From: a virus
Direction: 5' to 3' (one strand)
IMG/VR virus record: IMGVR_UViG_3300002835_000416
Location: 1 to 40,758 of that record
Length of the DNA: 40,758 bases
The translations under genes were made by a program, and so were the position numbers. Below the pieces are notes generated by a model. That model saw only the letters and a list, made by a program, of their open reading frames with translations, was not told the DNA's origin and made no database searches. Positions 6,004 through 39,743 of this stretch are shown here, piece by piece (within the stretch, counting starts at the first letter, position 1; the number at the start of each line of letters is the position of its first letter).

Positions 6004-6024
6004 CGATACCTCCTACGATTGATG

Positions 6025-6331: not shown

Positions 6332-6337
6332 TATCGT

Positions 6338-16290: not shown

Positions 16291-16356
16291 GGAGGGATCC
16301 TTCTGAGAGGTGGCGGAGAGGGTGGAGGCCTTGGTGGATCGCTTGATCATGTGGTC

Positions 16357-23673: not shown

Positions 23674-23843
23674 TGTTTGGTTCTCAATACTTGATACAAG
23701 ACTTGACTCTCGACTTGACTCTCGACTTGATCCCAGACTTGATTCCAGGCTTGATTCCAGACTTGATCCCAGACTTGATGTCTGACTTGATGTCTGACTT
23801 GACCATAGACTTGATTTCTGACTTGGTTTATGACTGATTTCAT
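23670..23843 (-). CDS. Tetrapeptide-repeat protein
   Basis: 57 aa, MKSVINQVRNQVYGQVRHQV opening, two ESQV tetrads near the end and terminus VLRTKQ. ATGA overlap at both ends. Confidence 0.65.
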   Translation of the reverse strand: MKSVINQVRNQVYGQVRHQVRHQVWDQVWNQAWNQVWDQVESQVESQVLYQVLRTKQ

Positions 23844-24022
23844 GGTTCGGTTCTCGCTTTATGCCTGACTTTATCCAAGACTTGTCCTCTGACTTGATCC
23901 CAGACTTGACGATAGACTTGATCTCTGACTTGATCTTGGACTTGAATCCAGACTTGATCATAGACTTGATCTTGGACTTGAATCCAGACTTGATCCCAGA
24001 CTTGACGCCTGACTGGTTTCAT
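23840..24022 (-). CDS. Tetrapeptide-repeat protein
   Basis: 60 aa, MKPV start, uninterrupted tetrads including two WIQVQDQV doublets, ending HKARTEP. Confidence 0.65.
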   Translation of the reverse strand: MKPVRRQVWDQVWIQVQDQVYDQVWIQVQDQVRDQVYRQVWDQVRGQVLDKVRHKARTEP

Positions 24023-24080
24023 TGTTTGGTTCTCGCTTTATTCAAGACGTTACGCATGACTTCCTGCCAGCTGCCAGACT

Positions 24081-24221
24081 TTATACGAGTCTGGCGCGCC
24101 AGACTTGATCGCCGACTTGATCCCAGACTTGCTCCGTAACTTGATGCAAGACTTGATGTCTAACTTGATCCAAGACTTGACGCCTGACTTGATCTCGGAC
24201 TTGGATTATGACTGATTTCAT
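24081..24221 (-). pseudogene. Truncated tetrapeptide-repeat member
   Basis: 46 aa. Tetrads run to GDQVWRARLV and a TAA stops the frame early. The following 58 nt to the next unit are diverged (they include CTGGCAGCTGGCAGGAAG) and no longer connect by an ATGA join. Confidence 0.6.
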
Positions 24222-24400
24222 GGATTGGTTCTCAATTTGGACAAGACTTGACGCCCAACTTGAATCCAGACTTGAGACCTGACTTGATTCCGGACTTGAT
24301 CATTGACTTGACCATAGGCTTTATCTCTGACTTGATTCCAAACTTGATCATGGGCTTGAAAATAGCCTTGATCTCTGACTTGGTTTTTGACGGATTTCAT
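24218..24400 (-). CDS. Tetrapeptide-repeat protein
   Basis: 60 aa; contains degenerate tetrads DQGY, FQAH and DKAY among the QV units, ending SKLRTNP. Confidence 0.65.
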   Translation of the reverse strand: MKSVKNQVRDQGYFQAHDQVWNQVRDKAYGQVNDQVRNQVRSQVWIQVGRQVLSKLRTNP

Positions 24401-24579
24401 GATTTGGATCTCGCTTTATCCAAGACTTTACGCGAGACTTGAACATAGACTTGACGATAGACTTGAACCACGACTTGATCCCAGACTGGTTCCTCAACTT
24501 GGTCCAAGACTTTACGCCTGACTTGACCATAGGCTTTATCTCTGACTTTATTCCTGACTTGATTTATGACTGATTTCAT
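24397..24579 (-). CDS. Tetrapeptide-repeat protein
   Basis: 60 aa with several Lys-for-Gln tetrads (RNKV, RRKV, SRKV) and EEPV; ends DKARSKS. Confidence 0.65.
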   Translation of the reverse strand: MKSVINQVRNKVRDKAYGQVRRKVLDQVEEPVWDQVVVQVYRQVYVQVSRKVLDKARSKS

Positions 24580-24721
24580 GGATTGGTTCTCGCTTTATGC
24601 CAGACTTGACGCGGACTTGATCACAGACTTTATAATAGACTTCATCAAAGACTTGACAATAGACTTGATCTCGGACTTGATCATAGACTTGATCTCGGAC
24701 TTGGATTATGACTGATTTCAT
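24548..24721 (-). pseudogene. Frameshifted tetrapeptide-repeat member
   Basis: 57 aa as read, but after CDQVR the frame switches to VKSGIKREPIHEISHKSSQE and overruns into the next gene by 32 nt. A single missing base within GTCCGCGTCAAGTC accounts for it; restoring one base recovers an HKARTNP-type end with the usual ATGA join at 24576-24579. Confidence 0.65.
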
Positions 24722-24924
24722 GGATTGATTCCCAATTTGGACAAGACTTTACGCCCAACTTGATGCCAGACTTGAGACTTGACTTGATCTTGGACTTGAA
24801 TCCAGACTTGACCATAGACTTGATCTTGGACTTGATGTCTGGCTTGATTCCGGACTTGATCATTGACTTGATCCCAGACTTTATCCCTGACTTGATCTCT
24901 GACTTGTTTTCTGACGGATTTCAT
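24718..24924 (-). CDS. Tetrapeptide-repeat protein
   Basis: 68 aa, one of the longest; tetrads include RNQARHQVQDQV and KSQV; ends SKLGINP. Confidence 0.65.
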   Translation of the reverse strand: MKSVRKQVRDQVRDKVWDQVNDQVRNQARHQVQDQVYGQVWIQVQDQVKSQVWHQVGRKVLSKLGINP

Positions 24925-25103
24925 GGTTCGGTTCTCGTTTTATCCCAGACTTTATCCCAGACTTGATCCTCGACTTGATCAGAGACTTGATTCCGAACTT
25001 GATTCCAGATTTGACGATTGACTTGAAGCTGAACTTGATCCCTGACTTGATCTGTAAATTGATCCGTGACTTTATACCAGACTTTGTTTCTGACTGGTTT
25101 CAT
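24921..25103 (-). CDS. Tetrapeptide-repeat protein
   Basis: 60 aa, MKPV start; Phe and Ile replace Val in TDQF and RQIW; ends DKTRTEP. Confidence 0.65.
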   Translation of the reverse strand: MKPVRNKVWYKVTDQFTDQVRDQVQLQVNRQIWNQVRNQVSDQVEDQVWDKVWDKTRTEP

Positions 25104-25282
25104 TGTTTGTACCTGACTTTATGCAAGACTTGAATCCAGACTTGACCATAGACTTGATCTTGGACTTGATCCAAGACTTGACCATAGACTTGATCCCAGA
25201 CTTGATTCAAGACTTGATCATCGACTTTATCGCAGACTTGATCCAAGACTTGATCCAAGACTTGACGCCTGACTGATTTCAT
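25100..25282 (-). CDS. Tetrapeptide-repeat protein
   Basis: 60 aa; carries a DQVCDKVDDQV stretch, the only Cys-containing tetrad in this member; ends VRYKQ. Confidence 0.65.
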   Translation of the reverse strand: MKSVRRQVLDQVLDQVCDKVDDQVLNQVWDQVYGQVLDQVQDQVYGQVWIQVLHKVRYKQ

Positions 25283-25473
25283 TGTTTGGCTCTCGCTTTA
25301 TGCCTGACTTTATGCAAGACTTGATCTCTGACTTGACCATAGACTTGATCCCAGACTTGACGCCAGACTTGATTCCAGACTTGATCATTGACTTGATTTC
25401 TGACTTGTTCTCTGACTTGACCATAGACTTGATCCCAGACTTGAACTCTGACTTGATTTCTGATTGATTTCAT
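25279..25473 (-). CDS. Tetrapeptide-repeat protein
   Basis: 64 aa from the family-type ATG 25473 (MKSIRNQV). A GTG four codons upstream overlaps the previous stop but is a by-product of that gene's nonsense change. Ends HKARAKQ. Confidence 0.65.
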   Translation of the reverse strand: MKSIRNQVRVQVWDQVYGQVREQVRNQVNDQVWNQVWRQVWDQVYGQVRDQVLHKVRHKARAKQ

Positions 25474-25481
25474 GGATTGAT

Positions 25482-25664
25482 TCACAATTTGGACAAGACT
25501 TGAACATAGACTTGATACCAGACTTGATGCCTGACTTGATTCCAGACTTGATTCAAGACTTGTTCTCTGACTTGATCATAGATTTGAAATCTGACTTGAT
25601 CCTCGACTTGACGCCAGACTTGGCGGTCGACTTGATTTCTGACTTGATTTATGACGGATTTCAT
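25482..25664 (-). CDS. Tetrapeptide-repeat protein, shortened end
   Basis: 60 aa. Ends VLSKL because GGA became TGA relative to the SKLGINP end of its homologue at 24718-24924; it therefore stops 9 nt before the next ATG, without the ATGA join. Confidence 0.6.
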   Translation of the reverse strand: MKSVINQVRNQVDRQVWRQVEDQVRFQIYDQVREQVLNQVWNQVRHQVWYQVYVQVLSKL

Positions 25665-25684
25665 GGTTTGGTACTCGCTTTGGA

Positions 25685-25867
25685 TCAGCCTTCACCCCTG
25701 ACTTGAATCTCGACTTTACGCCAGACTTGATCATTGACTTGATCCCAGACTTTATCCCAGACTTGAACCCTGACTGAAACCAAGACTTTATGTCCGACTG
25801 GACCATAGAATTGACGCCAGACTTGATTTACGACTTGATCTTTGACTTGATCTTTGACTGATTTCAT
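25685..25867 (-). CDS. Diverged tetrapeptide-repeat protein
   Basis: 60 aa; the middle (RQFYGPVGHKVLVSVRVQV) departs from Q-V and the end is VRGEG. The frame leaves the canonical join, so a 20-nt gap separates it from the next ORF. Confidence 0.55.
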   Translation of the reverse strand: MKSVKDQVKDQVVNQVWRQFYGPVGHKVLVSVRVQVWDKVWDQVNDQVWRKVEIQVRGEG

Positions 25868-26046
25868 GATTCGGTTTTCGCTTTATCCAAGATTTTATCT
25901 CTGAGTTGATTCCAGACTTGATTTTGGACCTGATTCTGGACTTGATGCCAGACTTGACGCATGATTTGATAATGGACTTGATCCCAGAATTGATGTTCGA
26001 CTTTATTCACGACTGTTCCCGTGACTTGACGCCTGACTGATTTCAT
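25864..26046 (-). CDS. Diverged tetrapeptide-repeat protein
   Basis: 60 aa; opens [20 protein letters not shown], with aliphatic residues still every fourth position, then regular tetrads; ends DKAKTES. Confidence 0.6.
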   Translation of the reverse strand: MKSVRRQVTGTVVNKVEHQFWDQVHYQIMRQVWHQVQNQVQNQVWNQLRDKILDKAKTES

Positions 26047-26120
26047 TGTTTGGTTCTCAATACTTGATCCAAGACTTGATCCCAGACTTGACGATAGACT
26101 TGACTTTTGACTGATTTCAT
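26043..26120 (-). CDS. Very short tetrapeptide-repeat protein
   Basis: 25 aa ([20 protein letters not shown], ending LRTKQ), with ATGA joins on both sides. It looks like an in-frame deletion of most tetrads; its ends are intact. Confidence 0.6.
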
Positions 26121-26299
26121 GGTTCTTCTCTCGCTTTGGACAAGACTTTGTAGCCGACTCGACTCCAGACTTGATTCCGGACTTGAGACCTGACTTGATC
26201 TTGGACTTGAATCCAGACTTGAGACCTGACTTGATCTTGGACTTGACGCCAGACTTGATTCCCGACTTGATCTCTGATTTGATTTACGACTGATTTCAT
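26117..26299 (-). CDS. Tetrapeptide-repeat protein
   Basis: 60 aa with a duplicated QDQVRSQV block; ends LSKAREEP. Confidence 0.65.
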
Positions 26300-26481
26300 G
26301 ATTTGGTTCTCGCTTTGTCCAAGACTTGATCGCAGACTTGACGCAAGACTTGTTTTTCGATTTGATCCAAGGCTTGATACTGGACTTGATTATAAACTTG
26401 GATATCAACTTGTTTCAGGACTTCGCCTATGACTCGACGCATGACTTGATTAATTGTGATCTGAAATTTGGTGGATTTCAT
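26296..26481 (-). CDS. Diverged tetrapeptide-repeat protein
   Basis: 61 aa, opens MKSTKFQITINQVMRRVIGE; spacing slips by one residue near the start and tetrads become regular later; ends DKARTKS. Confidence 0.6.
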   Translation of the reverse strand: MKSTKFQITINQVMRRVIGEVLKQVDIQVYNQVQYQALDQIEKQVLRQVCDQVLDKARTKS

Positions 26482-26659
26482 GATTCGGCACTCGCTTTAG
26501 ACAGACTTTATTCCTAACTTGATTCTCAGCTTGATCCCAGACTTGATCCTCGACTTGACGCCTGACTTGATTCCAGACTTGTTTCTCGACTTGATCATAG
26601 ATTTGAAATCTGACTTGATCCTCGACTTGACGCCAGACTTGTTTCTCGACTGATTTCAT
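26450..26659 (-). CDS. Tetrapeptide-repeat protein with shifted C-terminus
   Basis: 69 aa. Regular tetrads up to NQVRNKV, then CLKRVPNHEIHQISDHN: the frame has moved off the canonical KAR(T) end and overlaps the next gene by 32 nt instead of 4. Confidence 0.55.
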   Translation of the reverse strand: MKSVEKQVWRQVEDQVRFQIYDQVEKQVWNQVRRQVEDQVWDQAENQVRNKVCLKRVPNHEIHQISDHN

Positions 26660-26697
26660 GGTTTGGTTCCATCGGTAAGTGCATCTAGAATCTGACC

Positions 26698-26838
26698 CTA
26701 GACTCTGCCACAAGCCGGATCAGTATCAAAGATCACATGATATGATAAAGTAAAATCATCAGAAGCCACTTGACTTACGACTTCTTTGAGGACACAGTCT
26801 CTGACCCAATATGCAATTTCATCTTTGACAGGATTCAT
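26698..26838 (-). CDS. Array-leading member without perfect repeats
   Basis: 46 aa, MNPVKDEIAYWVRDCVLKEV then VSQV. Val/Ile still falls every fourth residue although the DNA shows no 12-nt repeat; C-terminus unrelated. ATGA join to its upstream neighbour. Confidence 0.55.
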   Translation of the reverse strand: MNPVKDEIAYWVRDCVLKEVVSQVASDDFTLSYHVIFDTDPACGRV

Positions 26839-27020
26839 GATCTGTATACGTCTATATTTCGTAGTGCTGTCAATACTGTTCCCATGGGGTTTTGGTCCCA
26901 GACTGGGTCTGATATTTTCCCCCAAATCTCATGATGCACCGCAACGTTGGTTTCTTTTACGACCTGTCTTTCGATTAAAAACTTGGTGTGATTTTGAATT
27001 TCATCCGCGACTGGTTTCAT
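26835..27020 (-). CDS. Array-leading member without perfect repeats
   Basis: 61 aa, MKPVADEIQNHTKFLIERQV opening; partial period-4 pattern (EIWGKISDPV) in the middle. ATGA joins on both sides. Confidence 0.55.
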   Translation of the reverse strand: MKPVADEIQNHTKFLIERQVVKETNVAVHHEIWGKISDPVWDQNPMGTVLTALRNIDVYRS

Positions 27021-27205
27021 AGCTTCATCGAATCCATCTTATCAAAGATCTTGTTTCTAACTTGCGAAGCGTGTTGTTCCCATACTGGCAAATTGATTTT
27101 TCTCCAGGTTAAATTCCAGATTTTGGGACTAACTTGCTTTTGAATTTGCCGCGAAACGTCATAGGAGGGATGATCAAAAATCTTCGCAAGGACTGTGTTA
27201 TTCAT
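27017..27205 (-). CDS. First member of array 1, degenerate repeat
   Basis: 62 aa, MNNTVLAKIFDHPSYDVSRQ then IQKQVSPKIWNL; period-4 aliphatics and Trp are still recognisable. Joined by ATGA to the 27202-27414 gene upstream. Confidence 0.55.
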   Translation of the reverse strand: MNNTVLAKIFDHPSYDVSRQIQKQVSPKIWNLTWRKINLPVWEQHASQVRNKIFDKMDSMKL

Positions 27206-29512: not shown

Positions 29513-29536
29513 CGCTGTCTCCTTCATCATGTGGTT

Positions 29537-29565
29537 AGTATAGACGGCATCCTGAACAATGTCAA
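29537..29565 (-). promoter_or_regulatory. Promoter cassette copy 18
   Basis: TTGACA (29560-29565), 17 nt, TATACT (29537-29542); downstream leader AAGGAGACAGCG. Confidence 0.85.
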
Positions 29566-29568
29566 GGG

Positions 29569-29814
29569 TCAATCTTCCTGTTTGCGCCAGTCGTCCCTGA
29601 CCTTGCGCCAGTCTGCGATATCCTTATCTGGATTTAGCATCGCCACGAGCCGTTCAATCTGCTCAGATGCTATCCTATCCAGCACCGCGCAGCGACGATA
29701 AAAAGGATCGTCTGTATCAAGTTTCTCGAAAGCCTCGGCGCGACTAAGCAAGCGTCCAGAGATCTCGGCACTTGAGCGATCTTTCAGCATAAGGTATAAA
29801 TGCAAAGGAGTCAT
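29569..29814 (-). CDS. Helical hypothetical protein
   Basis: 81 aa: MTPLHLYLMLKDRSSAEISG, RLLSRAEAFEKLDTDDPFYR, DWRKVRDDWRKQED. No family recognised. Confidence 0.55.
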   Translation of the reverse strand: MTPLHLYLMLKDRSSAEISGRLLSRAEAFEKLDTDDPFYRRCAVLDRIASEQIERLVAMLNPDKDIADWRKVRDDWRKQED

Positions 29815-29844
29815 TATTGATTATCCTGCCGTCAAGCGCCGATC

Positions 29845-30237
29845 CTACTCAGATTCTGCCTTGATTGCATCTTCAATGGTCTTCCATTCCTCGACATAAT
29901 CGCCACGCGGGTACCCGAGGCGCCATGGCCGGCACATCCACTCGGATGTGTAAAGATACATCCAATCAGCACCACAGTCAAGGGAAACGGAACGCAGATC
30001 TTCCATGGAATCATGGACCTGAGCATCAACGTCCGTTTCGCCCTTGGAACGATAAGACACCAGAGGAGAGAGGGTGCTCAGATCACCATGCTCCATCAGC
30101 GCGCGCGCAGCCTGCTCGCCGTTATGCTCATTCAGAAGATCCTTTCCAACTCCACGGGGATATCCGTCCCAATGACAGTAGATGGAAAGAAAAGTGCCAT
30201 CGGCATTCTGAACAGCAATGCGTGAACGGGTAGCCAT
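29845..30237 (-). CDS. Conserved phage protein (MATRSRIAVxNADG family)
   Basis: 130 aa. MATRSRIAVQNADGTFLSIY followed by CHWDGYPRGVGKDLL is a motif found in many unrelated phages; the LSIYCHWDGYP segment is invariant there. Function unknown. Confidence 0.75.
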   Translation of the reverse strand: MATRSRIAVQNADGTFLSIYCHWDGYPRGVGKDLLNEHNGEQAARALMEHGDLSTLSPLVSYRSKGETDVDAQVHDSMEDLRSVSLDCGADWMYLYTSEWMCRPWRLGYPRGDYVEEWKTIEDAIKAESE

Positions 30238-30248
30238 GATTTATCTCC

Positions 30249-30572
30249 TCACAGGCCGTAGTAGCTATGATACTGATAGGTATGCGGCCGCAGCACATTG
30301 CCGCGCGCAAAGTTGGTGGCAGGCGTCTTCCACGAAGCAGGCTTCAGAATATCACCGACCTGAAACTTACCGGTGTTTCGCAGCACGATGAAAGCATACG
30401 CGGACCTCGAGGATCCGTCCGACTTCACCACACGCATATATTTGGAACCGCGTTCAAACGAAACATTGGGCTTGCTGAATGGCGCCTTGCCAATCAGGCT
30501 ATCGGCGAACATCGTCAGCGCGATGTCCATGTCATATTCTGGCATGGTGGCATTCATTTCCAGGACCTGCAT
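30249..30572 (-). CDS. Conserved phage protein (GDILKPASWKTPATNFARGN family)
   Basis: 107 aa from ATG 30572. KYMRVVKSDGSSRSAYAFIV and FQVGDILKPASWKTPATNFA with RGN are shared with a family of short phage proteins; ends HSYYGL. Function unknown. Confidence 0.7.
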   Translation of the reverse strand: MQVLEMNATMPEYDMDIALTMFADSLIGKAPFSKPNVSFERGSKYMRVVKSDGSSRSAYAFIVLRNTGKFQVGDILKPASWKTPATNFARGNVLRPHTYQYHSYYGL

Positions 30573-30596
30573 CGTTGTCTCCCTCATCATGTGGTC

Positions 30597-30625
30597 AGTA
30601 TAGATGGCACACCGAACAATGTCAA
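30597..30625 (-). promoter_or_regulatory. Promoter cassette copy 19
   Basis: TTGACA (30620-30625), 17 nt, TATACT (30597-30602). The stop codon of the SWIM-type gene lies in the -35. Confidence 0.85.
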
Positions 30626-31014
30626 GGGCCCAAAACGTGCTTGCAAGATGACCTAAACGTAAACCCTGGACAGGTGCAGCTACGCTTTCCAGCAACCTCA
30701 GTCAGCGTATACACGGCACCCTTGGATCCCTGGACAGTCCACACGCGCGTCTGCGGCACCCGACGCTCGACCTTCTTGGCCAGCTTGCCATTCATGGCTA
30801 CGACACGATCCAGATCAATCGTTCGGAATGGAAAGCTTGGACGACCCGTTGCAAGATTGAAGACCTTGCGAGGATCCTGCCACTTCTGAAGAGGATAGAC
30901 GGTGCCAGAGACAATGCTGTGCTCGGCAATGACACCGTCCGCATACAGATGCCTATGATCCGCCATTGGATTGCGGATCTTGACCGTGATCTCTGTGCCA
31001 ACCTTGGGAATCAT
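30622..31014 (-). CDS. SWIM zinc-finger-like protein
   Basis: 130 aa. C-terminal CTCPGFTFRSSCKHVLGP gives the CxC...CxH zinc ligands of a SWIM finger, preceded by VYTLTEVAGKRS strands. SWIM domains bind DNA or protein partners. N-terminal half (MIPKVGTEITVKIRNPMADH) is beta-rich. The TGA is in promoter copy 19. Confidence 0.7.
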   Translation of the reverse strand: MIPKVGTEITVKIRNPMADHRHLYADGVIAEHSIVSGTVYPLQKWQDPRKVFNLATGRPSFPFRTIDLDRVVAMNGKLAKKVERRVPQTRVWTVQGSKGAVYTLTEVAGKRSCTCPGFTFRSSCKHVLGP

Positions 31015-31029
31015 TTTGGTTCTCCTACC

Positions 31030-31689
31030 TCAGGCGTAGTAGTTGGTACGATACTGATTGGAGGTGAGCTGCTCGACCAGCGAGTCAGCCTCCTCCTTCG
31101 CACGACGCTCGACAGAGTCAACATCGACCTTGGGATTGGCCACGTCGCAGTTCTTCGACCAGACCCAAACGACGTTGGTGAAACGATCAAAGGTTTTGCC
31201 ATACTTACCCTGCACCTGAGTCTTGGTGCCATCCAAAGCAACGCACAGCTTGGGAAGATAGTACGAACGATAGCCAGCCTGGTAGGGCATCTGCTTGATG
31301 AAGACGACCTTACCGACCTTGCCAAGATCCTTGCGACCGCGCTTCACGATGACAACGGAGCCCGGCTGAGCAACATTGGAATCCTCCTCAGCCCTCTGAA
31401 GGAACACGGCGCGCGCACGATCATAGTTCGCCTTGCGATAAGCCTCGATTACCTCGGGCGTCGCATCGACCTTGCCACCGACGCCGGGATTGCCATCGCT
31501 CACCAGGAGAATGTCGATGGCCTTGCCAGTATCGGCATCCCACACCAGAGCGTGGAGGCGATGTTCCCAGATATCGGACATCACGCGGTCACAGGACGTG
31601 AAGATGGAAAGGGTGGCGCCCTGGTAAGCATTCTCGACCAGGTACGGCTCCGCGGGATAGCCGGGGTACTTCATGTATGAAACAGGCAT
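31030..31689 (-). CDS. Hypothetical protein of the GC-rich early set
   Basis: 219 aa: FTSCDRVMSDIWEHRLHALV near the N-terminus and PGSVVIVKRGRKDLGKVGKV in the middle, where GRKDLGKVGKVVFIK resembles a KOW-like beta segment. Ends QYRTNYYA. RBS GGAG. No firm family. Confidence 0.6.
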   Translation of the reverse strand: MPVSYMKYPGYPAEPYLVENAYQGATLSIFTSCDRVMSDIWEHRLHALVWDADTGKAIDILLVSDGNPGVGGKVDATPEVIEAYRKANYDRARAVFLQRAEEDSNVAQPGSVVIVKRGRKDLGKVGKVVFIKQMPYQAGYRSYYLPKLCVALDGTKTQVQGKYGKTFDRFTNVVWVWSKNCDVANPKVDVDSVERRAKEEADSLVEQLTSNQYRTNYYA

Positions 31690-31735
31690 TTTTGCATAAG
31701 CTCCTTTGAGGGGTCTCTGTCTCGACTATGTGGTC

Positions 31736-31764
31736 AGTGTAGGTGGTGTTCGGGGAATTGTCAA
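31736..31764 (-). promoter_or_regulatory. Promoter cassette copy 20
   Basis: TTGACA (31759-31764), 17 nt, TACACT (31736-31741), about 46 nt before the 31030-31689 gene. Confidence 0.8.
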
Positions 31765-31772
31765 GGGCTAAG

Positions 31773-31910
31773 TTAGATCTCCTTCTTCACTCGCTTGCGC
31801 GAATAGACCTTCTTGGAAGGAACTATTCGCTTACGGTACTTCGGGGTCATAAGATCCGCGAAGATCGGGTGGCGGCGCGCGGGGCGCGTCTTGGATTTCA
31901 TCTTGATCAT
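31773..31910 (-). CDS. Small Lys/Arg-rich protein
   Basis: 45 aa (MIKMKSKTRPARRHPIFADL, ending KVYSRKRVKKEI), over one third basic. ATG 31910 is at the predicted transcription start of promoter copy 21, so translation may be leaderless or begin at ATG 31901. Similar short basic proteins with a RK.V.SKK.YSRK pattern occur in other phages; they might bind nucleic acid. Confidence 0.6.
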   Translation of the reverse strand: MIKMKSKTRPARRHPIFADLMTPKYRKRIVPSKKVYSRKRVKKEI

Positions 31911-31916
31911 GGACAC

Positions 31917-31945
31917 AGTATGTCAGGTGTCTTGGGTAATGTCAA
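31917..31945 (-). promoter_or_regulatory. Promoter cassette copy 21
   Basis: TTGACA (31940-31945), 17 nt, CATACT (31917-31922). Confidence 0.8.
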
Positions 31946-31967: not shown

Positions 31968-32150
31968 TCAATCTTCTTTTTCGATTTCGCGAAGAACTGC
32001 GTGTAGACAATTTCTCAGTCCACATTTCTTGACTTCAAAAATAGTTTCAGCACGAATTTTGTTTCGTGCTTTTTTACTTGTTTGAAGAGACACCTCATTC
32101 CAACAATTCATAGTCGGATCGGAAAACAATTTATCATGGACTGATTTCAT
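31968..32150 (-). CDS. Last ORF of array 2, non-repetitive
   Basis: 60 aa; keeps the MKSV start and ATGA join but then reads HDKLFSDPTMNCWNEVSLQT and a Cys-containing acidic end. It is either a captured gene fused to the array's start signal or a strongly diverged member. Confidence 0.55.
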   Translation of the reverse strand: MKSVHDKLFSDPTMNCWNEVSLQTSKKARNKIRAETIFEVKKCGLRNCLHAVLREIEKED

Positions 32151-32353
32151 GATTTGGTTCTCGCTTTATGCAAGATTTGATTATTGACTTGATCCACGAC
32201 TTGATCTCCAACTTGTGCCCAGACTTGATCTCTAACTTTATCTCGGACTTGATCTCTAACTTTATCTTGGACTTGATCCAAGACTTGATCCAATACTTGA
32301 CCATAGACTTGAATCATGACTTGATCCCAGACTTGGTTCACGACACATTTCAT
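32147..32353 (-). CDS. Tetrapeptide-repeat protein
   Basis: 68 aa, MKCVVNQV start; alternating DKV and DQV tetrads (QDKVRDQVRDKVRDQV); ends HKARTKS. Confidence 0.65.
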   Translation of the reverse strand: MKCVVNQVWDQVMIQVYGQVLDQVLDQVQDKVRDQVRDKVRDQVWAQVGDQVVDQVNNQILHKARTKS

Positions 32354-32526
32354 GATTCGGTTCTCGCTTTATGCAAGACTTTAAACGCGACTTGATCCCG
32401 GATTTGACTCCAGACTTGAGCTTGAGCATGGACTTGAAGGTCTACTTGATCCTCGACTTGATCGGTAACTTGATCATGGACTTGATTCCAGACTTGATCA
32501 TAGAATTGACTTTTGACTGATTTCAT
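32350..32526 (-). CDS. Tetrapeptide-repeat protein
   Basis: 58 aa (MKSVKSQFYDQVWNQVHDQV start), includes a two-residue insertion HAQAQV that offsets the period; ends HKARTES. Confidence 0.65.
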   Translation of the reverse strand: MKSVKSQFYDQVWNQVHDQVTDQVEDQVDLQVHAQAQVWSQIRDQVAFKVLHKARTES

Positions 32527-32729
32527 GGTTCTGTTTTCGCTTTATTCGCGACTTTACGCCCAACTTGAATCCAGACTTGATTCCAGACTTGATGTCTGAC
32601 TTGATGCCAGACTTGATCTCTGACTTGACCCTCGACTTGATCCCTGAGTTGAATCTGGACTTGAATCTGGACTTGATCTCTGACTTGATCCAAGACTTGT
32701 TCTCTGACTTGTTTTCTGACTGATTTCAT
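32523..32729 (-). CDS. Tetrapeptide-repeat protein
   Basis: 68 aa with QIQVQIQLRDQV in the middle; ends NKAKTEP. Confidence 0.65.
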   Translation of the reverse strand: MKSVRKQVREQVLDQVRDQVQIQVQIQLRDQVEGQVRDQVWHQVRHQVWNQVWIQVGRKVANKAKTEP

Positions 32730-32896
32730 GGTTTGGATCTCGCTTTATTCCCGACTTTACGCCCAACTTGATCCCAGACTTGACCATAGACTTGATCCCA
32801 GACTTGATCTCGGACTTGGTCCGAGACTTTACGCGAGACTTGAACACAGACTTGATCTCTGACTTGAATCCAGACTTGATCTTTGACTGATTTCAT
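32726..32896 (-). CDS. Tetrapeptide-repeat protein
   Basis: 56 aa ([20 protein letters not shown] start); GRKV tetrads near the end; ends NKARSKP. Confidence 0.65.
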   Translation of the reverse strand: MKSVKDQVWIQVRDQVCVQVSRKVSDQVRDQVWDQVYGQVWDQVGRKVGNKARSKP

Positions 32897-33075
32897 GGTT
32901 CGGTTCTCGCTTTATCCAAGACTTTATCATGGATTTGATCCCAGACTTCAACCTCGACTTGATTCCAGACTTGATCCCAGATTTGGTACCAGACTTGATC
33001 CCAGACTTGTTCCTCGATTTTATCCCGGACTTCATCCAAGACATCATACCAGACTTTGTTTCTGACCGATTTCAT
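32893..33075 (-). CDS. Tetrapeptide-repeat protein
   Basis: 60 aa, more acidic than its neighbours ([19 protein letters not shown]); ends DKARTEP. Confidence 0.65.
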
Positions 33076-33266
33076 GGTTCGGTTCTCGCTTTGTCCAAGA
33101 CTTTATCTCTGATTCGAATCCCGACTTGAATCAAGACTTGATCCCCGACTTGATGCCAGACTTGATTCCCGACTTGAATCAAGACTTGATTCCCGACTTG
33201 AATCAAGACTTGATCCCAGACTTGTTCCTCGACTTGATCTCTGACTTGATCTTTGACTGATTTCAT
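33072..33266 (-). CDS. Tetrapeptide-repeat protein (identical twin A)
   Basis: 64 aa, identical in protein and DNA to the next unit; alternates LIQVGNQV blocks and ends with the non-tetrad [16 protein letters not shown]. Confidence 0.7.
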
Positions 33267-33453
33267 GGTTCGGTTCTCGCTTTGTCCAAGACTTTATCTC
33301 TGATTCGAATCCCGACTTGAATCAAGACTTGATCCCCGACTTGATGCCAGACTTGATTCCCGACTTGAATCAAGACTTGATTCCCGACTTGAATCAAGAC
33401 TTGATCCCAGACTTGTTCCTCGACTTGATCTCTGACTTGATCTTTGACTGATT
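33072..33453 (-). repeat. Perfect 191-bp tandem duplication
   Basis: 33072-33262 and 33263-33453 show no difference on direct comparison; about 83 nt of the next unit are also identical. Confidence 0.9.
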
Positions 33454-33457
33454 TCAT
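33263..33457 (-). CDS. Tetrapeptide-repeat protein (identical twin B)
   Basis: 64 aa; second copy of a 191-bp tandem duplication. Start and stop joins are both ATGA. Confidence 0.7.
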
Positions 33458-33636
33458 GGTTCGGTTCTCGCTTTGTCCAAGACTTTATCTCTGATTCGAA
33501 TCCCGACTTGAATCAAGACTTGATCCCCGACTTGATACCAGACTTGATTCCGGACTTGAACTCTGACTTGATCATCGACTTGATAGAAGACTTGACCCTC
33601 GACTTGATCCCTGACTTGATCTTTGACTGATTTCAT
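33454..33636 (-). CDS. First tetrapeptide-repeat protein of array 2
   Basis: 60 aa from ATG 33636. Its last 27 or so codons match the twin units exactly, the first part differs (VEGQVFYQVDDQVRVQV). No clear Shine-Dalgarno precedes it; a GTG at 33684 upstream lies in the terminator and is rejected. Confidence 0.65.
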   Translation of the reverse strand: MKSVKDQVRDQVEGQVFYQVDDQVRVQVRNQVWYQVGDQVLIQVGIRIRDKVLDKARTEP

Positions 33637-33640
33637 GGCA

Positions 33641-33671
33641 CAAAAGAAAACAGCGGCTTTCGCCGCTGTTT
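33641..33671 (-). terminator. Intrinsic terminator after the DUF6745-like gene
   Basis: 10-bp stem AAACAGCGGC/GCCGCTGTTT with a 4-nt loop, followed on the - strand by TTTTCTTTT. It stands between the 33685-34548 gene and array 2. Confidence 0.88.
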
Positions 33672-33684: not shown

Positions 33685-34548
33685 TCAGGTACGAACCTCT
33701 GGAACATACTCAGCGGGCTTCAGACCATAGCTCCATGCGTTGGCCTCAAGAGCAGTCTTCATGTCAGGCGGAACAGGAAGCGCAAAGTTACGTCCCGTGC
33801 CACACTTCACGAAAAGAAACTTCTCCTTGCCAATGTCTGGAATATCAACCTCCAGCAGTGTGCCGATCATCTCATCAGCATCCTCATCAATCACCGTGGA
33901 ATCAAGCTGATCGATGACATTAGCCCAACCCAGGATCTCACACGCAGCACGACGCAGCTCCGCGTTGGTCTGACCAAGAGCAACCTTCGCGGTCAGGCTC
34001 TTGCGGTCCTTGATCCACTCGTCAGGAATGGTCTGACCATGCCACGAATAGATCTCAAAGCCATCGCGATACCGAATTGCTGGACCAGTCTCGCAATGCG
34101 AGAGACGACGATCATCAAACTTGATGACCTCGGGACGATCATGAATAATCGCCTCGGTCTCGCCACAGTAAACCCAGCCACAGTTCCGAGCCAGCTCCTG
34201 CATGTAGCTGATGTCAGTCAGTTCGATATTGGTCTCGTTACGATAGTAATCGTAATAGGAAAGCCAAGAAGCTTCCATCGAACCGAACATGCAACCAGCC
34301 GTATAGTCCGAACGGCTCTTGTTGCCAGAACGCTTCTTGAAGATCTTAAAGCCCTCATCTGGACCCTTCGCGAAATGATACATCTTCGGCTCAGGAAGAC
34401 CAACGGCAGTATATGCCCTTGCTACGAGACCCTTGGCCTTCTTGAAATCGACAGGCTCCGTGGCAAGGCCGATGTCAACCCACTTGGTGACATACTTCGG
34501 CATCGCCTCGGTCTGGTTCTTGGTAAGACTGGTAAGCTTCTTCGTCAT
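33685..34548 (-). CDS. DUF6745-like protein
   Basis: 287 aa. LSHCETGPAIRYRDGFEIYS followed by WHGQTIPDEWI (about 149-179) is the DUF6745 hallmark; the C-terminal half has DIGKEKFLFVKCGTGRNFAL and PPDMKTALEANAW. Such proteins occur in phages and bacteria, often beside the family encoded by the next gene upstream (34678-35037). Function unknown. Confidence 0.7.
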   Translation of the reverse strand: MTKKLTSLTKNQTEAMPKYVTKWVDIGLATEPVDFKKAKGLVARAYTAVGLPEPKMYHFAKGPDEGFKIFKKRSGNKSRSDYTAGCMFGSMEASWLSYYDYYRNETNIELTDISYMQELARNCGWVYCGETEAIIHDRPEVIKFDDRRLSHCETGPAIRYRDGFEIYSWHGQTIPDEWIKDRKSLTAKVALGQTNAELRRAACEILGWANVIDQLDSTVIDEDADEMIGTLLEVDIPDIGKEKFLFVKCGTGRNFALPVPPDMKTALEANAWSYGLKPAEYVPEVRT

Positions 34549-34577
34549 GTTTTCCTCTGTATGATTAGTGTCAATGT

Positions 34578-34606
34578 ATGATACGATGTATGATTGGTAT
34601 TGTCAA
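34578..34606 (-). promoter_or_regulatory. Sigma70-type promoter
   Basis: TTGACA (34601-34606), 17 nt, TATCAT (34578-34583), about 30 nt before the DUF6745-like gene, with GAGGAAAAC as RBS. Confidence 0.75.
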
Positions 34607-34610
34607 GCAG

Positions 34611-34647
34611 AAAAAATGCGGTTCGCGAGAACTAATTCTCCAACCGC
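34611..34647 (-). terminator. Intrinsic terminator after the 34678-35037 gene
   Basis: GCGGTT...AACCGC outer stem with inner GAGAA/TTCTC, followed by ATTTTTT on the - strand and directly by the next promoter. Confidence 0.8.
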
Positions 34648-34677
34648 TCTAAGCAAACATCGCTCAGGAATTCAGGA

Positions 34678-35037
34678 TCAGTCAGCAGCCTTGCGAAAAC
34701 CCTCCGGCACATACTCACGCTGACGACGGATCTTGTACTTTCCAGGAGGAACAAGCAGAGTCTCATGGGTGTCCCATGCGCGCCTATGCTCAATCGGAGT
34801 ATCCTCCGTTACCAGCAGAAACATCTCATAGAGATCAACGTCGCTGGCACCCTTCTCCTTGAAAGCCTCGACGGTGCCAGGACGCTCCATGACCATCACG
34901 TGGTCATGACCAGTCTCCGAATGTGCCACCGTATAGGTGTTGTTCTTTGGATCGATCTTCTCAAGTCCCTTGGGAAGGTTGTCCACGCGCATGATGACGA
35001 AATCACCCTGCGCAGCCATGTTCTTGAAAGTCTTCAT
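34678..35037 (-). CDS. DUF6745-partner conserved protein
   Basis: 119 aa. VAHSETGHDHVMVMERPGTV, AWDTHETLLVPPGKYKIRRQ and REYVPEGFRKAAD are conserved in a small family usually found next to DUF6745 genes, as here. The His-rich SETGHDH segment could bind metal in a cupin-like fold. Function unknown. Confidence 0.7.
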   Translation of the reverse strand: MKTFKNMAAQGDFVIMRVDNLPKGLEKIDPKNNTYTVAHSETGHDHVMVMERPGTVEAFKEKGASDVDLYEMFLLVTEDTPIEHRRAWDTHETLLVPPGKYKIRRQREYVPEGFRKAAD

Positions 35038-35067
35038 TTCACTTCTCCTTATTGAGTTTGTATTCAG

Positions 35068-35096
35068 ATTATATCTTGGTTCGTTGGATATGTCAA
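35068..35096 (-). promoter_or_regulatory. Perfect-consensus sigma70 promoter
   Basis: TTGACA (35091-35096), 17 nt, TATAAT (35068-35073), then AAGGAGAAG and the ATG at 35037. Confidence 0.88.
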
Positions 35097-35100
35097 CTAC

Positions 35101-35262
35101 TTATTTAAGTTCCCACTCAAAGGTCAGTTTGTGTTCTGTGGCGTCCATCTTGACTTTGGATCTTTCCATTGGCATGACGATTTTCTTGGTATCATGGATG
35201 AACAGGCGAACTGCCTCATAGAATTCATCCATGCTGATTTCCACTTTTCGCTTCTCAATCAT
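35101..35262 (-). CDS. Small hypothetical protein
   Basis: 53 aa (MIEKRKVEISMDEFYEAVRL, ending HKLTFEWELK); its ATG shares a base with the upstream stop (TAATG). Its stop lies next to the promoter at 35068-35096. No family recognised. Confidence 0.6.
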   Translation of the reverse strand: MIEKRKVEISMDEFYEAVRLFIHDTKKIVMPMERSKVKMDATEHKLTFEWELK

Positions 35263-35510
35263 TAGTCATCCATTGCAGTATGTGTATCTAACGTTGGCGG
35301 CGTGTTCTTTATTTCGTTTTCTTCCAACATATCGTGATGCAAATACAGGGTATTTTGCATGACTACAATCGAAGTGAGCATCATGTCATACATCATCGTA
35401 AACATGAAGCTGTGTTTGGAAGCTTCAAAATTGTGTGGAGAAAAATTCTCCATCAAATCCAAAATCGAATCACAAACTTCAAGCAGATGTTCGGTTTGTT
35501 TCTTGTTCAT
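35262..35510 (-). CDS. Small helical hypothetical protein
   Basis: 82 aa from ATG 35510, chosen because it overlaps the upstream stop as ATGA. Met/His-rich helices (HSFMFTMMYDMMLTSIVVMQ) and an acidic tail. No family recognised. Confidence 0.55.
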   Translation of the reverse strand: MNKKQTEHLLEVCDSILDLMENFSPHNFEASKHSFMFTMMYDMMLTSIVVMQNTLYLHHDMLEENEIKNTPPTLDTHTAMDD

Positions 35511-35698
35511 CTTACATCCATCGAATCGTAGAGTGCAATATTCGCATGATTTGTAGCCGCAATGAACTGCTCGACTTCGCTTCGCCAAAATCTCTTGGCT
35601 TCATCATTCAGCTTGTCCCATGCATCATCAGCAAGACCAAGCTTCATGACATACATTGAACGTGCAATTCTATCTATAAACATTCTATCGTCTATCAT
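35507..35698 (-). CDS. Small helical hypothetical protein
   Basis: 63 aa from ATG 35698, which has GGAG 6 nt upstream; ATG 35710 is an alternative. MIDDRMFIDRIARSMYVMKL and WRSEVEQFIAATNHANIALY. Divergent from the zinc-finger gene at 35709. Confidence 0.55.
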   Translation of the reverse strand: MIDDRMFIDRIARSMYVMKLGLADDAWDKLNDEAKRFWRSEVEQFIAATNHANIALYDSMDVR

Positions 35699-35703
35699 AA
35701 ATA
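35696..35703 (+). promoter_or_regulatory. Late-promoter-like element (CATAAATA) with zero leader
   Basis: CATAAATA, then TCTCC and ATG, on the + strand: one mismatch from the T4 late consensus and the same layout as the - strand element at 12933-12940. Confidence 0.6.
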
Positions 35704-35708
35704 TCTCC

Positions 35709-36029
35709 ATGAGAAAATATTACGTCAAAACAAATCGTCCTGTTGGTCGTCCTGCAACATCACGCACAACGAAAGTTTGTCAGTACTGTGATGCTGAGTT
35801 TACTACTCGTACCAAGGCGAGATTCTGTTCCAAGCCTTGTGCTGCTAAAAATCGTGGTATGCAAAAGTTTACTCCCGAACAGGAACAAAAGCGCAGAGAA
35901 GCAGTTCGCCGAAACAATTTATCCGAAGTTCATCTTGATAGACTCAGAGAGTCTAGCTACAAGAATCATTACGGATATTATGAACCTCTTGATCCTATCT
36001 TCCCGTCGGACGATAACGAATCCTTTTAG
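35709..36029 (+). CDS. Zinc-finger protein (CxxC...CxxxC)
   Basis: 106 aa from ATG 35709. TTKVCQYCDAEFTTRTKARF followed by CSKPCAAKNRG provides four cysteines of a treble-clef/HNH-type zinc site, though no HNH catalytic residues are evident. The N-terminus has a GRPATSRTTK basic arm. One of two lone + strand genes in the right part, probably late. Its stop overlaps the converging 36026-36295 gene. Confidence 0.65.
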   Translation: MRKYYVKTNRPVGRPATSRTTKVCQYCDAEFTTRTKARFCSKPCAAKNRGMQKFTPEQEQKRREAVRRNNLSEVHLDRLRESSYKNHYGYYEPLDPIFPSDDNESF

Positions 36030-36295
36030 TAATACATTTCCTTGTATTCTGGATCAAGATGATTGGAATCTGAATCCCAATTCATATTGACTCGCGTCAT
36101 GATCTGAGCCAGAGTCTCCTGCACCTCAATGATGTTTGATGCTCCCGTGGCATTTCTTAGCACGACATGAACGTAGGTATTACGTTTTGTGTTTCTTTCA
36201 TATGCCTGAATCACATCGGATGCGCGAACAAGCATTCGGCGCGTATGCATTTCTGAGGTCTTTGGATCAACAATGACCTCGTTTAGAATTATCAT
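36026..36295 (-). CDS. Small hypothetical protein
   Basis: 89 aa from ATG 36295, 1 nt after the stop of the upstream gene, so probably translationally coupled; longer starts lie inside that gene. MIILNEVIVDPKTSEMHTRR and TYVHVVLRNATGASNIIEVQ. No family recognised. Confidence 0.55.
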   Translation of the reverse strand: MIILNEVIVDPKTSEMHTRRMLVRASDVIQAYERNTKRNTYVHVVLRNATGASNIIEVQETLAQIMTRVNMNWDSDSNHLDPEYKEMYY

Positions 36296-36296
36296 T

Positions 36297-36464
36297 TTAT
36301 CTGGCGTAAAATTCATCGTCATATTCATCATCTTCTTCAGCATCTTGCCACTTCTTCAATAGGCTTTTGGAATTCTGTCGCTTTGCTTTGCGAACCGCCT
36401 TGTCTGCATCAAAGTCAATTTCATCATCTTCTTCATAATTCTCATTATACTTACGCTTAGACAT
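36297..36464 (-). CDS. Small highly charged protein
   Basis: 55 aa: MSKRKYNENYEEDDEIDFDA, a basic KAVRKAKRQNSKSLLKKWQD helix and an acidic EEDDEYDDEFYAR end. Probably disordered; function unknown. Confidence 0.6.
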   Translation of the reverse strand: MSKRKYNENYEEDDEIDFDADKAVRKAKRQNSKSLLKKWQDAEEDDEYDDEFYAR

Positions 36465-36482
36465 GTTTGATAATTCTACTCC

Positions 36483-36878
36483 TTATGCTGTCAGGGTGAC
36501 GTTGTATTTGGCGAGCTTTGGTTTCCATGAGAAGAATGTTTCGCCGTGTGTCATTGTATTCTCATGTATCCATTGATAATGGTGAACCATTTCGTGTATC
36601 AGAACTTCAATGAAATGCTTTTTGGATTTTTGGTAATGGTTGAGGGAAAGATCAGAGTATCTGCCTTTCGTCTTGCTAGTGTCTCCAATACACTCACCCC
36701 AACAACCATGGCGGCGACGTATTTCAATTTTTCTAAATTGCGGAAGATCATTCTTGAAAATCTCACGATTGATTATATTGAACCAACGAATGACTTCATC
36801 TTCCGTGGGAACGTATTTGCACTTTTCATGCGCGCGAGACATTTCCTTTGCTAGCTTTGATTTGGTACGATTTCGCAT
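36483..36878 (-). CDS. SprT-like zinc metalloprotease domain protein
   Basis: 131 aa. HFIEVLIHEMVHHYQWIHEN (about 88-107) contains the HEMVH motif with catalytic Glu and two His ligands, and MTHGETFFSWKPKL supplies the third His. The N-terminal WFNIINREIFKNDLPQFRKI matches the SprT-like helix. SprT/Spartan proteases act on DNA-bound proteins; phage versions are uncharacterised. Confidence 0.8.
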   Translation of the reverse strand: MRNRTKSKLAKEMSRAHEKCKYVPTEDEVIRWFNIINREIFKNDLPQFRKIEIRRRHGCWGECIGDTSKTKGRYSDLSLNHYQKSKKHFIEVLIHEMVHHYQWIHENTMTHGETFFSWKPKLAKYNVTLTA

Positions 36879-36908
36879 TTGGAAGGCTCCTTCTTGCGTT
36901 CATCATAA

Positions 36909-37352
36909 TCAAATACTCTCGTTCAAGACATTTGGGAATGCAGCTTTAGCAATTTCTTGCGTTAGTCCTTTGACCTTCAGGTTCTTGCCCATCATGTTCA
37001 ATAGCACGATGGCATCACCTTGAGGCATGATCTCAAGCATCTGGATAAGCAGTTCATTTGAACGCTTCTCTGCCAGAGTCGGAGGACGCTTTGGATGATT
37101 TGCAATAAACAGATACATGCGATCAAACTCGCGATGTAGATCTGAATAGGTTACGCCAGTTGGTACATCCGATGGCTTCCAATTTGGCCAGCGTCCTTCA
37201 GTCGTAAACTGAATGTTTGGATTGAATGCACAGGCGAGAACCTTGCGTAGGGTTCTGGTATTGTTTGCGCGAAGAACATTGATGCGATCAGCATCCGTTT
37301 CCGCCTTTTCAAATTTTTCAAACACTTCGGAAATTGTCAATATCATTTTCAA
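36909..37352 (-). CDS. DUF6433-like conserved T4-superfamily protein
   Basis: 147 aa. DRINVLRANNTRTLRKVLAC, AFNPNIQFTTEGRWPNWKPS, and C-terminal NLKVKGLTQEIAKAAFPNVL follow the DUF6433 pattern common in T4-like phages near replication genes. Starts with an ATGA overlap to RNase H. Function unknown. Confidence 0.7.
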   Translation of the reverse strand: MKMILTISEVFEKFEKAETDADRINVLRANNTRTLRKVLACAFNPNIQFTTEGRWPNWKPSDVPTGVTYSDLHREFDRMYLFIANHPKRPPTLAEKRSNELLIQMLEIMPQGDAIVLLNMMGKNLKVKGLTQEIAKAAFPNVLNESI

Positions 37353-38191
37353 AACTCATCAATAGAGGAAATTAGATTGGTTAGTTTGGATGCCATGAAA
37401 TAATTGATCATGGCAGCACGAGGCTTCGGAGCAATGGATTCGTATTGATCAGTAATGGCCTGCGAGATGTTTGTCGGAATGTTGTCGAGGTCGATTAGCA
37501 TTCTGTTACGAGTAAATCCATGTCCAAGTTGGCTATGCTGAGCGAGGTCATCATACGAAAGTTCTAACCACTCAGCCAGTTTCTTGCTATTTAGCGTCTT
37601 CTGACGTTCGCCCTTCACGAAAGAATCGTCGTCAGATAGCGCATTAGGAATGCCATCACCCTTATCACCCCGCAGAATATGCTCCAGCTTGTCGCGCTGC
37701 GGAGAATCCGTAGTGACAAACTTACCAAGAATAGGTGACCACTGCTTCACGCTCTTGTTGACATGAAGCTGAACGAAATCCTTGTCCGAAGACACGATCA
37801 TGATATTCTCATGCGGCGCATACTTCTTGGTCAGCACGGCAATGATATCGTCAGCCTCGGCGCCTTCAACGCGAATAACCTTGTATGGCATATGCTGGGA
37901 GATCTCTTCACGAATCTTGTGCAGAATGGTGAAGATGGCAGTCCAATCGTGTCCGGACTTCTCGCGATCCTTCTTGCGATGCTGCTTATACTGAGGATAT
38001 ACGTCGCGACGCCAATAAGTCGGACCGTCACAGGCGATTACTATATCGCCATGATTGCGAAACTTCTTGGAAATTGCACGAATGGAATTGAGAACCATGT
38101 GACGCACAAGGCCCTCTTCCAGATTTTGAGAATTTGAAGTTTGCTTCATCAAGTTGGAAATGGCCAACTGATTATAATCAATAAGAATCAT
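37349..38191 (-). CDS. rnh: RNase H / 5'-3' exonuclease, T4 Rnh-like
   Basis: 280 aa. MILIDYNQLAISNLMKQ (first metal-binding Asp), DIVIACDGPTYWRRDVYPQY with KQHRKK, VEGAEADDIIAVLTKKY, and VSSDKDFVQL with a GDKGDGIPN H3TH region give the full FEN-1/T4 RNase H acidic set. It removes RNA primers and 5' flaps on the lagging strand together with gp32. Confidence 0.9.
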   Translation of the reverse strand: MILIDYNQLAISNLMKQTSNSQNLEEGLVRHMVLNSIRAISKKFRNHGDIVIACDGPTYWRRDVYPQYKQHRKKDREKSGHDWTAIFTILHKIREEISQHMPYKVIRVEGAEADDIIAVLTKKYAPHENIMIVSSDKDFVQLHVNKSVKQWSPILGKFVTTDSPQRDKLEHILRGDKGDGIPNALSDDDSFVKGERQKTLNSKKLAEWLELSYDDLAQHSQLGHGFTRNRMLIDLDNIPTNISQAITDQYESIAPKPRAAMINYFMASKLTNLISSIDEF

Positions 38192-38233
38192 AAATGTATC
38201 TTACTTCATTATGTTGGAAAGATCAAGAACTTT

Positions 38234-38623
38234 TTACTTGTCTTCGTCATCATTCTTTTCCATATACTCTTCATAGTCTTCCATCTCTTCCGTCTGTGGT
38301 GCAGCTTCAAAGTTTTCATCAACGAACTTCTGGAGAGAATGTTCCAGACCACACTGACGAAGCATGGCCGACTTCAATGCTTCCACGACGAAGCAAAAAT
38401 CGGTGAAGAATGCATCGTCTTCGGTGTTGAATCCTTCTGCTGCCATACGACCATATAGTTGATTCATCGTGCGAGCGAGAACCATGTCAACGTATCGTTC
38501 CTTGTTTTCTCCCAGCTGCTTGACAAACTCTTCCTTTGACTGAGCTGCCGAAAGAGACACTGGCTGCTTGTGCTTGGGAAACTTTAGTACATTCGTAGGC
38601 TTGTTTTCATTCTCGGTTGTCAC
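38234..38623 (-). CDS. Hypothetical protein with acidic tail
   Basis: 129 aa; helical centre (MNQLYGRMAAEGFNTEDDAF, FCFVVEALKSAMLRQCGLEH) and an acidic end EEMEDYEEYMEKNDDEDK. Resembles small T4-superfamily proteins adjacent to replication genes, but no family is recognised. Confidence 0.6.
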   Translation of the reverse strand: MTTENENKPTNVLKFPKHKQPVSLSAAQSKEEFVKQLGENKERYVDMVLARTMNQLYGRMAAEGFNTEDDAFFTDFCFVVEALKSAMLRQCGLEHSLQKFVDENFEAAPQTEEMEDYEEYMEKNDDEDK

Positions 38624-38637
38624 ATGAAGTCTCCATT

Positions 38638-38979
38638 TTATGGATTGTTTTCAAAACTTTTCTTTTTCTTTTTTAAAGAGTTACAGTGTGGTATGACCAG
38701 GTCGACAATTATATGGGCACAAATCTTGACGCATTTCACTGTCGATTCCATAAATTCTGGTGTACACATCTTAACGATAAAGTCTACAAACCAAGCAAGA
38801 TCTTTTGGCTGAGTTACATGGGGATACATTTGCATATATAGAGCCCAATACTCAAGCTGCACTCCTTGTAGTCTATTGTCTGTCATAGTATAAGCCAACT
38901 GCAGTAGTTTATCAAGACGCTCTATCTCACCTAAGGTCATTGGCCTATACCAATCATACCTATTTTTAAATCCAGTCAT
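38638..38979 (-). CDS. Hypothetical protein
   Basis: 113 aa: MTGFKNRYDWYRPMTLGEIE, LEYWALYMQMYPHVTQPKDL, and a Cys-containing C-terminal helix ending in a lysine run. ATGA overlap with the upstream gene. No family recognised. Confidence 0.55.
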   Translation of the reverse strand: MTGFKNRYDWYRPMTLGEIERLDKLLQLAYTMTDNRLQGVQLEYWALYMQMYPHVTQPKDLAWFVDFIVKMCTPEFMESTVKCVKICAHIIVDLVIPHCNSLKKKKKSFENNP

Positions 38980-39314
38980 TTAGAAATCTCTATCACACCA
39001 TCAGGAAATTCCGTGCATGCAATGAGGTATGACTTGACGAAATCTACAAGGTTGTTATAGTCCCCCCAACCGTTTGAGGGATTGTGTTGCTTGTATTCCT
39101 CGGGAAAGGTCATTAGCATTGAAAGACCCACTCGAAGATAAGGCAAGATGTCTCCTCCTGTCTTCAATCCAAGTTCTTCTGGATACCAAAGAACCTTGTA
39201 CAGAGTTGTGTTACTCACCTTCACTGCATCTGCCATGGTATTTAGATTGTGAGTGATGTTCTCGGTCCACACAGAGGTTGGACGAAGAGCTGTAAGGGTA
39301 ATGTCGAGGCTCAT
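38976..39314 (-). CDS. Conserved phage protein (MSLDITLTA...NITHNL family)
   Basis: 112 aa. MSLDITLTALRPTSVWTENI followed by THNLNTMADA, with PEELGLKTGGDILPYLRVGL and NGWGDYNNLVDFVKSYLIAC, matches a small family present in many phages. Function unknown. Confidence 0.75.
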   Translation of the reverse strand: MSLDITLTALRPTSVWTENITHNLNTMADAVKVSNTTLYKVLWYPEELGLKTGGDILPYLRVGLSMLMTFPEEYKQHNPSNGWGDYNNLVDFVKSYLIACTEFPDGVIEISK

Positions 39315-39550
39315 CTTTTATATCCCATCTCTCTCTTTTCATCATCTGATAATGTGTTCAACCATTCAACTGCATCGACGCATCTCATGCACAGATCCTT
39401 GTATTTTGAATGCGTCCCAACTTCTCGTAGAACTTTCCAACATCTCTCGCATTTATTACCAGTGGCGAGGTAGCCGTAAATCGACACACCAGGAACATTT
39501 GGATCGTGATACCATCCATGTTCATCAAAATAACCTTTTCCTTTGCTCAT
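39311..39550 (-). CDS. Small protein with an IleRS-type zinc finger
   Basis: 79 aa from ATG 39550. NKCERCWKVLREVGTHSKYK followed by DLCMRCVDAVEWL is the CxxC...CxxC finger found at the C-terminus of isoleucyl-tRNA synthetase (KCxRCW...VG...LCxRC). The rest of the synthetase is absent. An upstream GYFDEHGWYHDPNVPG arm is unique. It may bind tRNA or nucleic acid; unproven. Confidence 0.7.
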   Translation of the reverse strand: MSKGKGYFDEHGWYHDPNVPGVSIYGYLATGNKCERCWKVLREVGTHSKYKDLCMRCVDAVEWLNTLSDDEKREMGYKR

Positions 39551-39557
39551 TTCTGAT

Positions 39558-39743
39558 TCACACCATGCGCCCACTCATATCGTTATAGCCCCAAGTTTCA
39601 GCATCTTCAAGTATTTTGTGTGCTGCTTTGCCAACTATCCATTCCACAGGAGGTCCCATTCCAACTTCTGGATATCTTCTATCATAGTGATAGATATCAA
39701 ATGCCTTCTCTGTTAGCAATTTAATTAGTTGATGCTTGTTCAT
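39558..39743 (-). CDS. Small hypothetical protein
   Basis: 61 aa from ATG 39743, sharing a base with the upstream stop (TGATG). MNKHQLIKLLTEKAFDIYHY and WIVGKAAHKILEDAETWG. Its opening resembles the MNxxIxxL starts of the FGVE paralogues next to it. Confidence 0.6.
   Translation of the reverse strand: MNKHQLIKLLTEKAFDIYHYDRRYPEVGMGPPVEWIVGKAAHKILEDAETWGYNDMSGRMV

Follow-up and report, generated by a model that had tools for sequence, protein, structure and literature searches.

Diversity-generating retroelements vary chosen residues while the scaffold is kept constant, and the variation arises at template adenines only. A tetrapeptide repeat occurs inside the DUF6745 protein of some phages, of a prophage of M. 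abscessus and of Nocardia farcinica. In these fused forms the repeat is found at one fixed place, between the N-terminal and C-terminal DUF6745 parts; in phage cta39025 its unit is SSLx instead of xDQV. In the segmental amplification of phage T4 tifA, one gene is amplified under selection (PMC9391042). No paper describing DUF6745, DUF4816 or the DQVWDQV motif was found in the open-access collection searched, itself only part of the literature. The PADLOC models gave no match for the DUF6745 protein or the partner protein encoded in the window, that is, the whole stretch of viral DNA that was analysed (a virus record of 40,758 bases, which may be a fragment). The window carries the tetrapeptide repeat in two arrays of small separate ORFs.

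Layout of the arrays and their neighbourhood

The record is that of a T4-like phage, with genes for a tail tube, a baseplate hub, a gp32-like and an RNase H-like protein. A tmRNA of the alphaproteobacterial type (5976-6382, minus strand; tag peptide ANDNYASEMALAA) and a PF12849 phosphate-binding-protein-like gene with a signal-peptide-like start (9735-10781, minus strand) were also observed. The repeat region comprises the following features.

34678-35037, minus strand: partner gene of DUF6745 (phrog_27831), 119 aa, conserved
34578-34606, minus strand: sigma-70-like promoter TTGACA-17-TATCAT upstream of the DUF6745 gene, a consensus match only (11/12)
33685-34548, minus strand: DUF6745 gene of the split form, free of internal repeats (PF20530, 2e-29)
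33649-33667, minus strand: hairpin resembling an intrinsic terminator, between DUF6745 and array 2
33454-33636, minus strand: array 2 unit 1, 60 aa; ortholog at L010:3913-4104
33263-33457, minus strand: array 2 unit 2, 64 aa; same sequence as unit 3
33072-33266, minus strand: array 2 unit 3, 64 aa; residues 4-62 predicted to form one helix
32893-33075, minus strand: array 2 unit 4, 60 aa; ortholog in L009, 95% identical in nucleotides
32726-32896, minus strand: array 2 unit 5, 56 aa
32523-32729, minus strand: array 2 unit 6, 68 aa
32350-32526, minus strand: array 2 unit 7, 58 aa; outside the 12-nt length register
32147-32353, minus strand: array 2 unit 8, 68 aa
31968-32150, minus strand: ninth ATGA-coupled ORF, with an MKSV start (MKSVHDKL...) and without repeats
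26835-27205, minus strand: pair of degenerate, unit-like ORFs with ATGA coupling, upstream of array 1
23500-26713, minus strand: array 1, with about 18 starts of units of the array 2 kind, several units being broken

Array 2 is a genuine row of coupled small genes and not a product of chance. As the preliminary description had reported, eight repeat-bearing ORFs of 56-68 aa form an unbroken row at 32147-33636 on the minus strand, and each stop codon overlaps the next start codon by 4 nt (ATGA). The same description had called these ORFs in frame, which is correct inside each ORF; with a 4-nt overlap, the frame changes from each ORF to the next. Their proteins follow the pattern MKSV-(xDQV)n-KARTEP, in which xDQV is encoded by the 12-nt unit NNG RAT CAA GTC. 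The ORF length is 12n+3 nt in seven of the eight units, the exception (32350-32526) being 177 nt long, and a 191-nt unit is identical in 33072-33266 and 33263-33457. Tandem repeat scores (TRF) reach 1048. Among 1000 base shuffles, 944 contained no such coupled ORF and the maximum was five, against ten in the real DNA counted by the same procedure, nested ATGs included.

The start and end signals are common to both arrays, and array 1 indeed has several disrupted members. While most of its units are intact, the unit 25685-25867 is interrupted by a stop codon, the units starting at 24721, 26659 and 23673 have frameshifts, and the unit starting at 24221 carries a non-repeat insert. The hairpin at 33649-33667 (-27.5 kcal/mol; z -5.8 with flanks) is conserved in the related locus L010. 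Since this strong hairpin precedes unit 1, expression of array 2 may rely on transcripts that start at the DUF6745 promoter and read through it, and the array may be expressed little, or separately from DUF6745. Several promoter-like TTGACA-17-TANACT sites were seen at 29530-31945 on the minus strand, ahead of small genes of the intervening region.

Coding of the repeats and their association with DUF6745

Judging by their stop codons, the array repeats are translated as xDQV coding units. Units were picked by DNA anchors alone from the window and from related loci, so that not all 2183 are independent; the DQV frame is free of stops in all of them, and the remaining two frames contain stops in 55 and 258 units. 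For the X codon of 1698 units about 124 stops are expected from base composition and none was observed; TGG is the most frequent X codon (440 of 1698 contexts), and TAG and TGA are absent. ATGA is the most frequent junction between array ORFs (88 cases).

The gene at 33685-34548 is a member of PF20530 (102.8 bits against a curated cut-off of 27) and the only DUF6745 copy in the record; a PF20530 scan of the array unit proteins gave no such match. Array 2 comes directly after this gene, and the partner gene precedes it. In a survey of 80 viral loci, for which the query was the DUF6745 protein and not the repeat, repeat runs were found within 6 kb of DUF6745 in 50 loci, compared with 0 of 80 shuffled ones; the other 30 loci had no repeat run, a few of them carrying weaker repeats. 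The partner gene adjoins DUF6745 in 73 of the 80 survey loci, in five of eight fused viral loci and in 23 of 24 further phage, plasmid or bacterial loci. A scan of genome contigs yielded no relative in the first run and 19 loci with a Nocardia query. A Blattabacterium plasmid match was rejected as a relative of the repeat, being an unrelated simple repeat, and a Streptomyces plasmid match (H16/L145) was set aside, its run being short and located at the margin of an annotated gene that is unrelated.

Other neighbours of DUF6745 were noted in passing. The window contains a phrog_1250 AAA ATPase-like gene (15385-16350, minus strand), relatives of which lie near DUF6745 in about 12 other loci. An 18-nt repeat (GNAEVY/GNAKVY-like) is located at L097:7463-7963 close to a DUF6745 gene lacking an xDQV array. 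In Streptomyces and relatives (L152, L162 and L147), DUF6745 and its partner adjoin STM4011-STM4015-like genes, as judged by eye.

The array repeats share the characters of the insert in fused DUF6745 proteins: both are tandem tetrapeptides with Q/S and V/L fixed and with X rich in W/R/G/E. Separate arrays accompany none of eight fused and 28 of 39 split DUF6745 clusters formed at 80% identity (p=0.0002); by single loci, the counts are 0/8 and 61/94. Mainly because fused repeats and separate arrays exclude each other, the array ORFs can be regarded as a putative detached DUF6745 insert, and we infer from these distributions that their products may physically associate with DUF6745. In the AlphaFold2 models, residues 4-62 of one array unit form a single helix (pLDDT 84) and the repeats of a fused DUF6745 protein form long helices with low pLDDT in mid-repeat, helix prediction being weak evidence for a repetitive protein. 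In a fold search with the fused model, in which one domain could mask another, no solved structure reached E <= 0.001 or Z >= 5.

Turnover of units and history of the two arrays

Comparison of contigs indicates that the arrays gain, lose and reshuffle units beside an unchanged gene. The contigs compared are metagenome assemblies, in which repeats can be assembled wrongly; in five of them DUF6745 has no differences (0/864), yet the number and content of the units differ, and all array units stay open. L009 is 97-98% identical to the window across most of 33722-39576, yet its array units differ. In this contig homologs of array-1 unit 25867 and array-2 unit 33075 are immediate neighbours, in that order, and this joining of the two types shows that units shuffle. 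In 18 arrays, H at codon positions 1 and 2 of the variable residues is mostly 0.4-0.7, compared with mostly 0-0.3 at the fourfold-degenerate valine site, and nearly all of these arrays have the excess of variation at the two variable codons. This pattern is consistent with diversifying selection that acts on two residues in each unit, plus frequent homogenisation; possible alternative sources are position-specific mutation and a constraint on the nucleic acid.

The preliminary description had proposed that the two arrays arose either by block duplication or by insertion of the genes at 27.2-31.9 kb into one ancestral array, and had suggested a unit-by-unit alignment and an inspection of related phages. 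The common start and end signals and some best-match unit pairs across the arrays favour such a history. The arrays do form one family, with units as similar between arrays (mean nucleotide identity 0.68) as within them (0.67 and 0.68-0.71). The order of their units, however, is not collinear (p=0.17). Furthermore, the syntenic relatives L139 and L140 keep most of the intervening genes in the same order (orthologs of 30622, 30249, 29243, 29045, 28570, 28364 and 27411), and 62 bp separate the orthologs of 27411 and 22853, with the site of array 1 empty. Of the three units in these relatives, a single one occupies the array-2 site and the other two are located at a third site, past the 22853 ortholog; each begins with MNIDD, a start different from that in the window. 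Because of this synteny, the lack of collinearity and the equal identities, neither the insertion nor the block copy is supported, and we consider either history very improbable. Separate expansions of the two window arrays from one pool fit better, and array 1 may possibly have been lost in L139 and L140. A search with the segment 31030-31689 of the window found no related viral loci.

Possible role of the array proteins and known systems

We propose, with a probability of about 0.55, that the array proteins are detached DUF6745 helical inserts acting in trans, and that the arrays are separate expansions of one pool. A trans-acting helical insert is the likely state of the proteins, which would function together with DUF6745 and its partner. 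Every unit would present a helical surface of its own, and new surfaces would continually arise by recombination that respects the 12-nt register. Such a pattern could fit phage-host conflict or some other fast-changing binding partner, and our best guess is that the array proteins serve as exchangeable helical binding surfaces. We speculate, much more tentatively, that the phage encodes an ever-renewed repertoire of interchangeable helical subunits plugging into a DUF6745-partner core, which would constitute an undescribed combinatorial system of recognition or decoy.

The same arrays could be a coding minisatellite, in which a 12-nt repeat has grown by slippage and recombination and is tolerated as an open frame with no selected function. 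The strong homogeneity within each genome, the identity of neighbouring units, the presence of arrays at other sites in relatives and the broken units of array 1 agree with this origin. It is nevertheless unlikely, given that stops are wholly absent though TGG is the commonest X codon, that ATGA coupling is maintained, that the arrays are placed beside DUF6745, that repeats in cis and in trans exclude each other, and that two residues carry surplus variation. The coding capacity would be secondary if the fixed core (TCAAGTC in the window) were a DNA or RNA site. The wobble positions are almost fixed while the amino acids vary, and in comparison with L010 the third positions of unit W33457 diverge in 5 of ~64 codons, against 71 of 288 in DUF6745. 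Avoidance of stops in one frame only and the genome-specific choice of fixed bases (CAA or CAG; GTC, GTA, CTC or CTG; wobble T or C) make this explanation improbable. TCAAGTC as a universal DNA motif was rejected: the first search had favoured it, and since the fixed bases differ between genomes, there is no single universal motif.

The apparent variability of the arrays could also result from repeat collapse or chimerism, as the sequences are metagenome contigs and identical 191-nt copies are difficult to assemble from short reads. However, the coupled ORFs are intact in every variant, arrays with genome-specific start and end signals occur in many independent contigs, and the repeat is also present within annotated Nocardia and M. 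abscessus prophage proteins; we therefore expect an assembly artefact hardly at all.

DUF6745, a family of viruses and actinobacteria, is thus tied to a conserved partner and a hypervariable third component in a testable three-part system. The arrays exemplify very fast, frame-preserving gene turnover in phages beside an unchanged gene, and provide a natural system for the study of binding-surface diversification by viruses, apparently without reverse transcriptase. The two arrays together occupy nearly 5 kb of the window, a large cost that needs a reason.

Among known families and systems, DUF4816 (PF16086) matches one array-1 unit weakly (E 0.0007), with a score of 19.9 under the cut-off of 29.4; the remaining array units tested scored lower than 19.9. 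Like diversity-generating retroelements, the arrays vary chosen residues on a constant scaffold; unlike them, they vary at both codon bases and in length. A reverse transcriptase (PF00078) was not found in the 40.8 kb record, which may be a fragment, and control genomes were positive. The arrays resemble T4 tifA (PMC9391042) in the recombination-driven change of copy number of a small phage gene, but the window keeps many diverged units that change at the 12-nt level. The fused DUF6745 proteins (gp38 of Mycobacterium phage prophiGD102-1 and the Nocardia farcinica protein) have the tetrapeptide pattern, the preferred X residues and the partner gene in common with the arrays; their repeat lies within one protein, whereas the window distributes it among many separate coupled ORFs.
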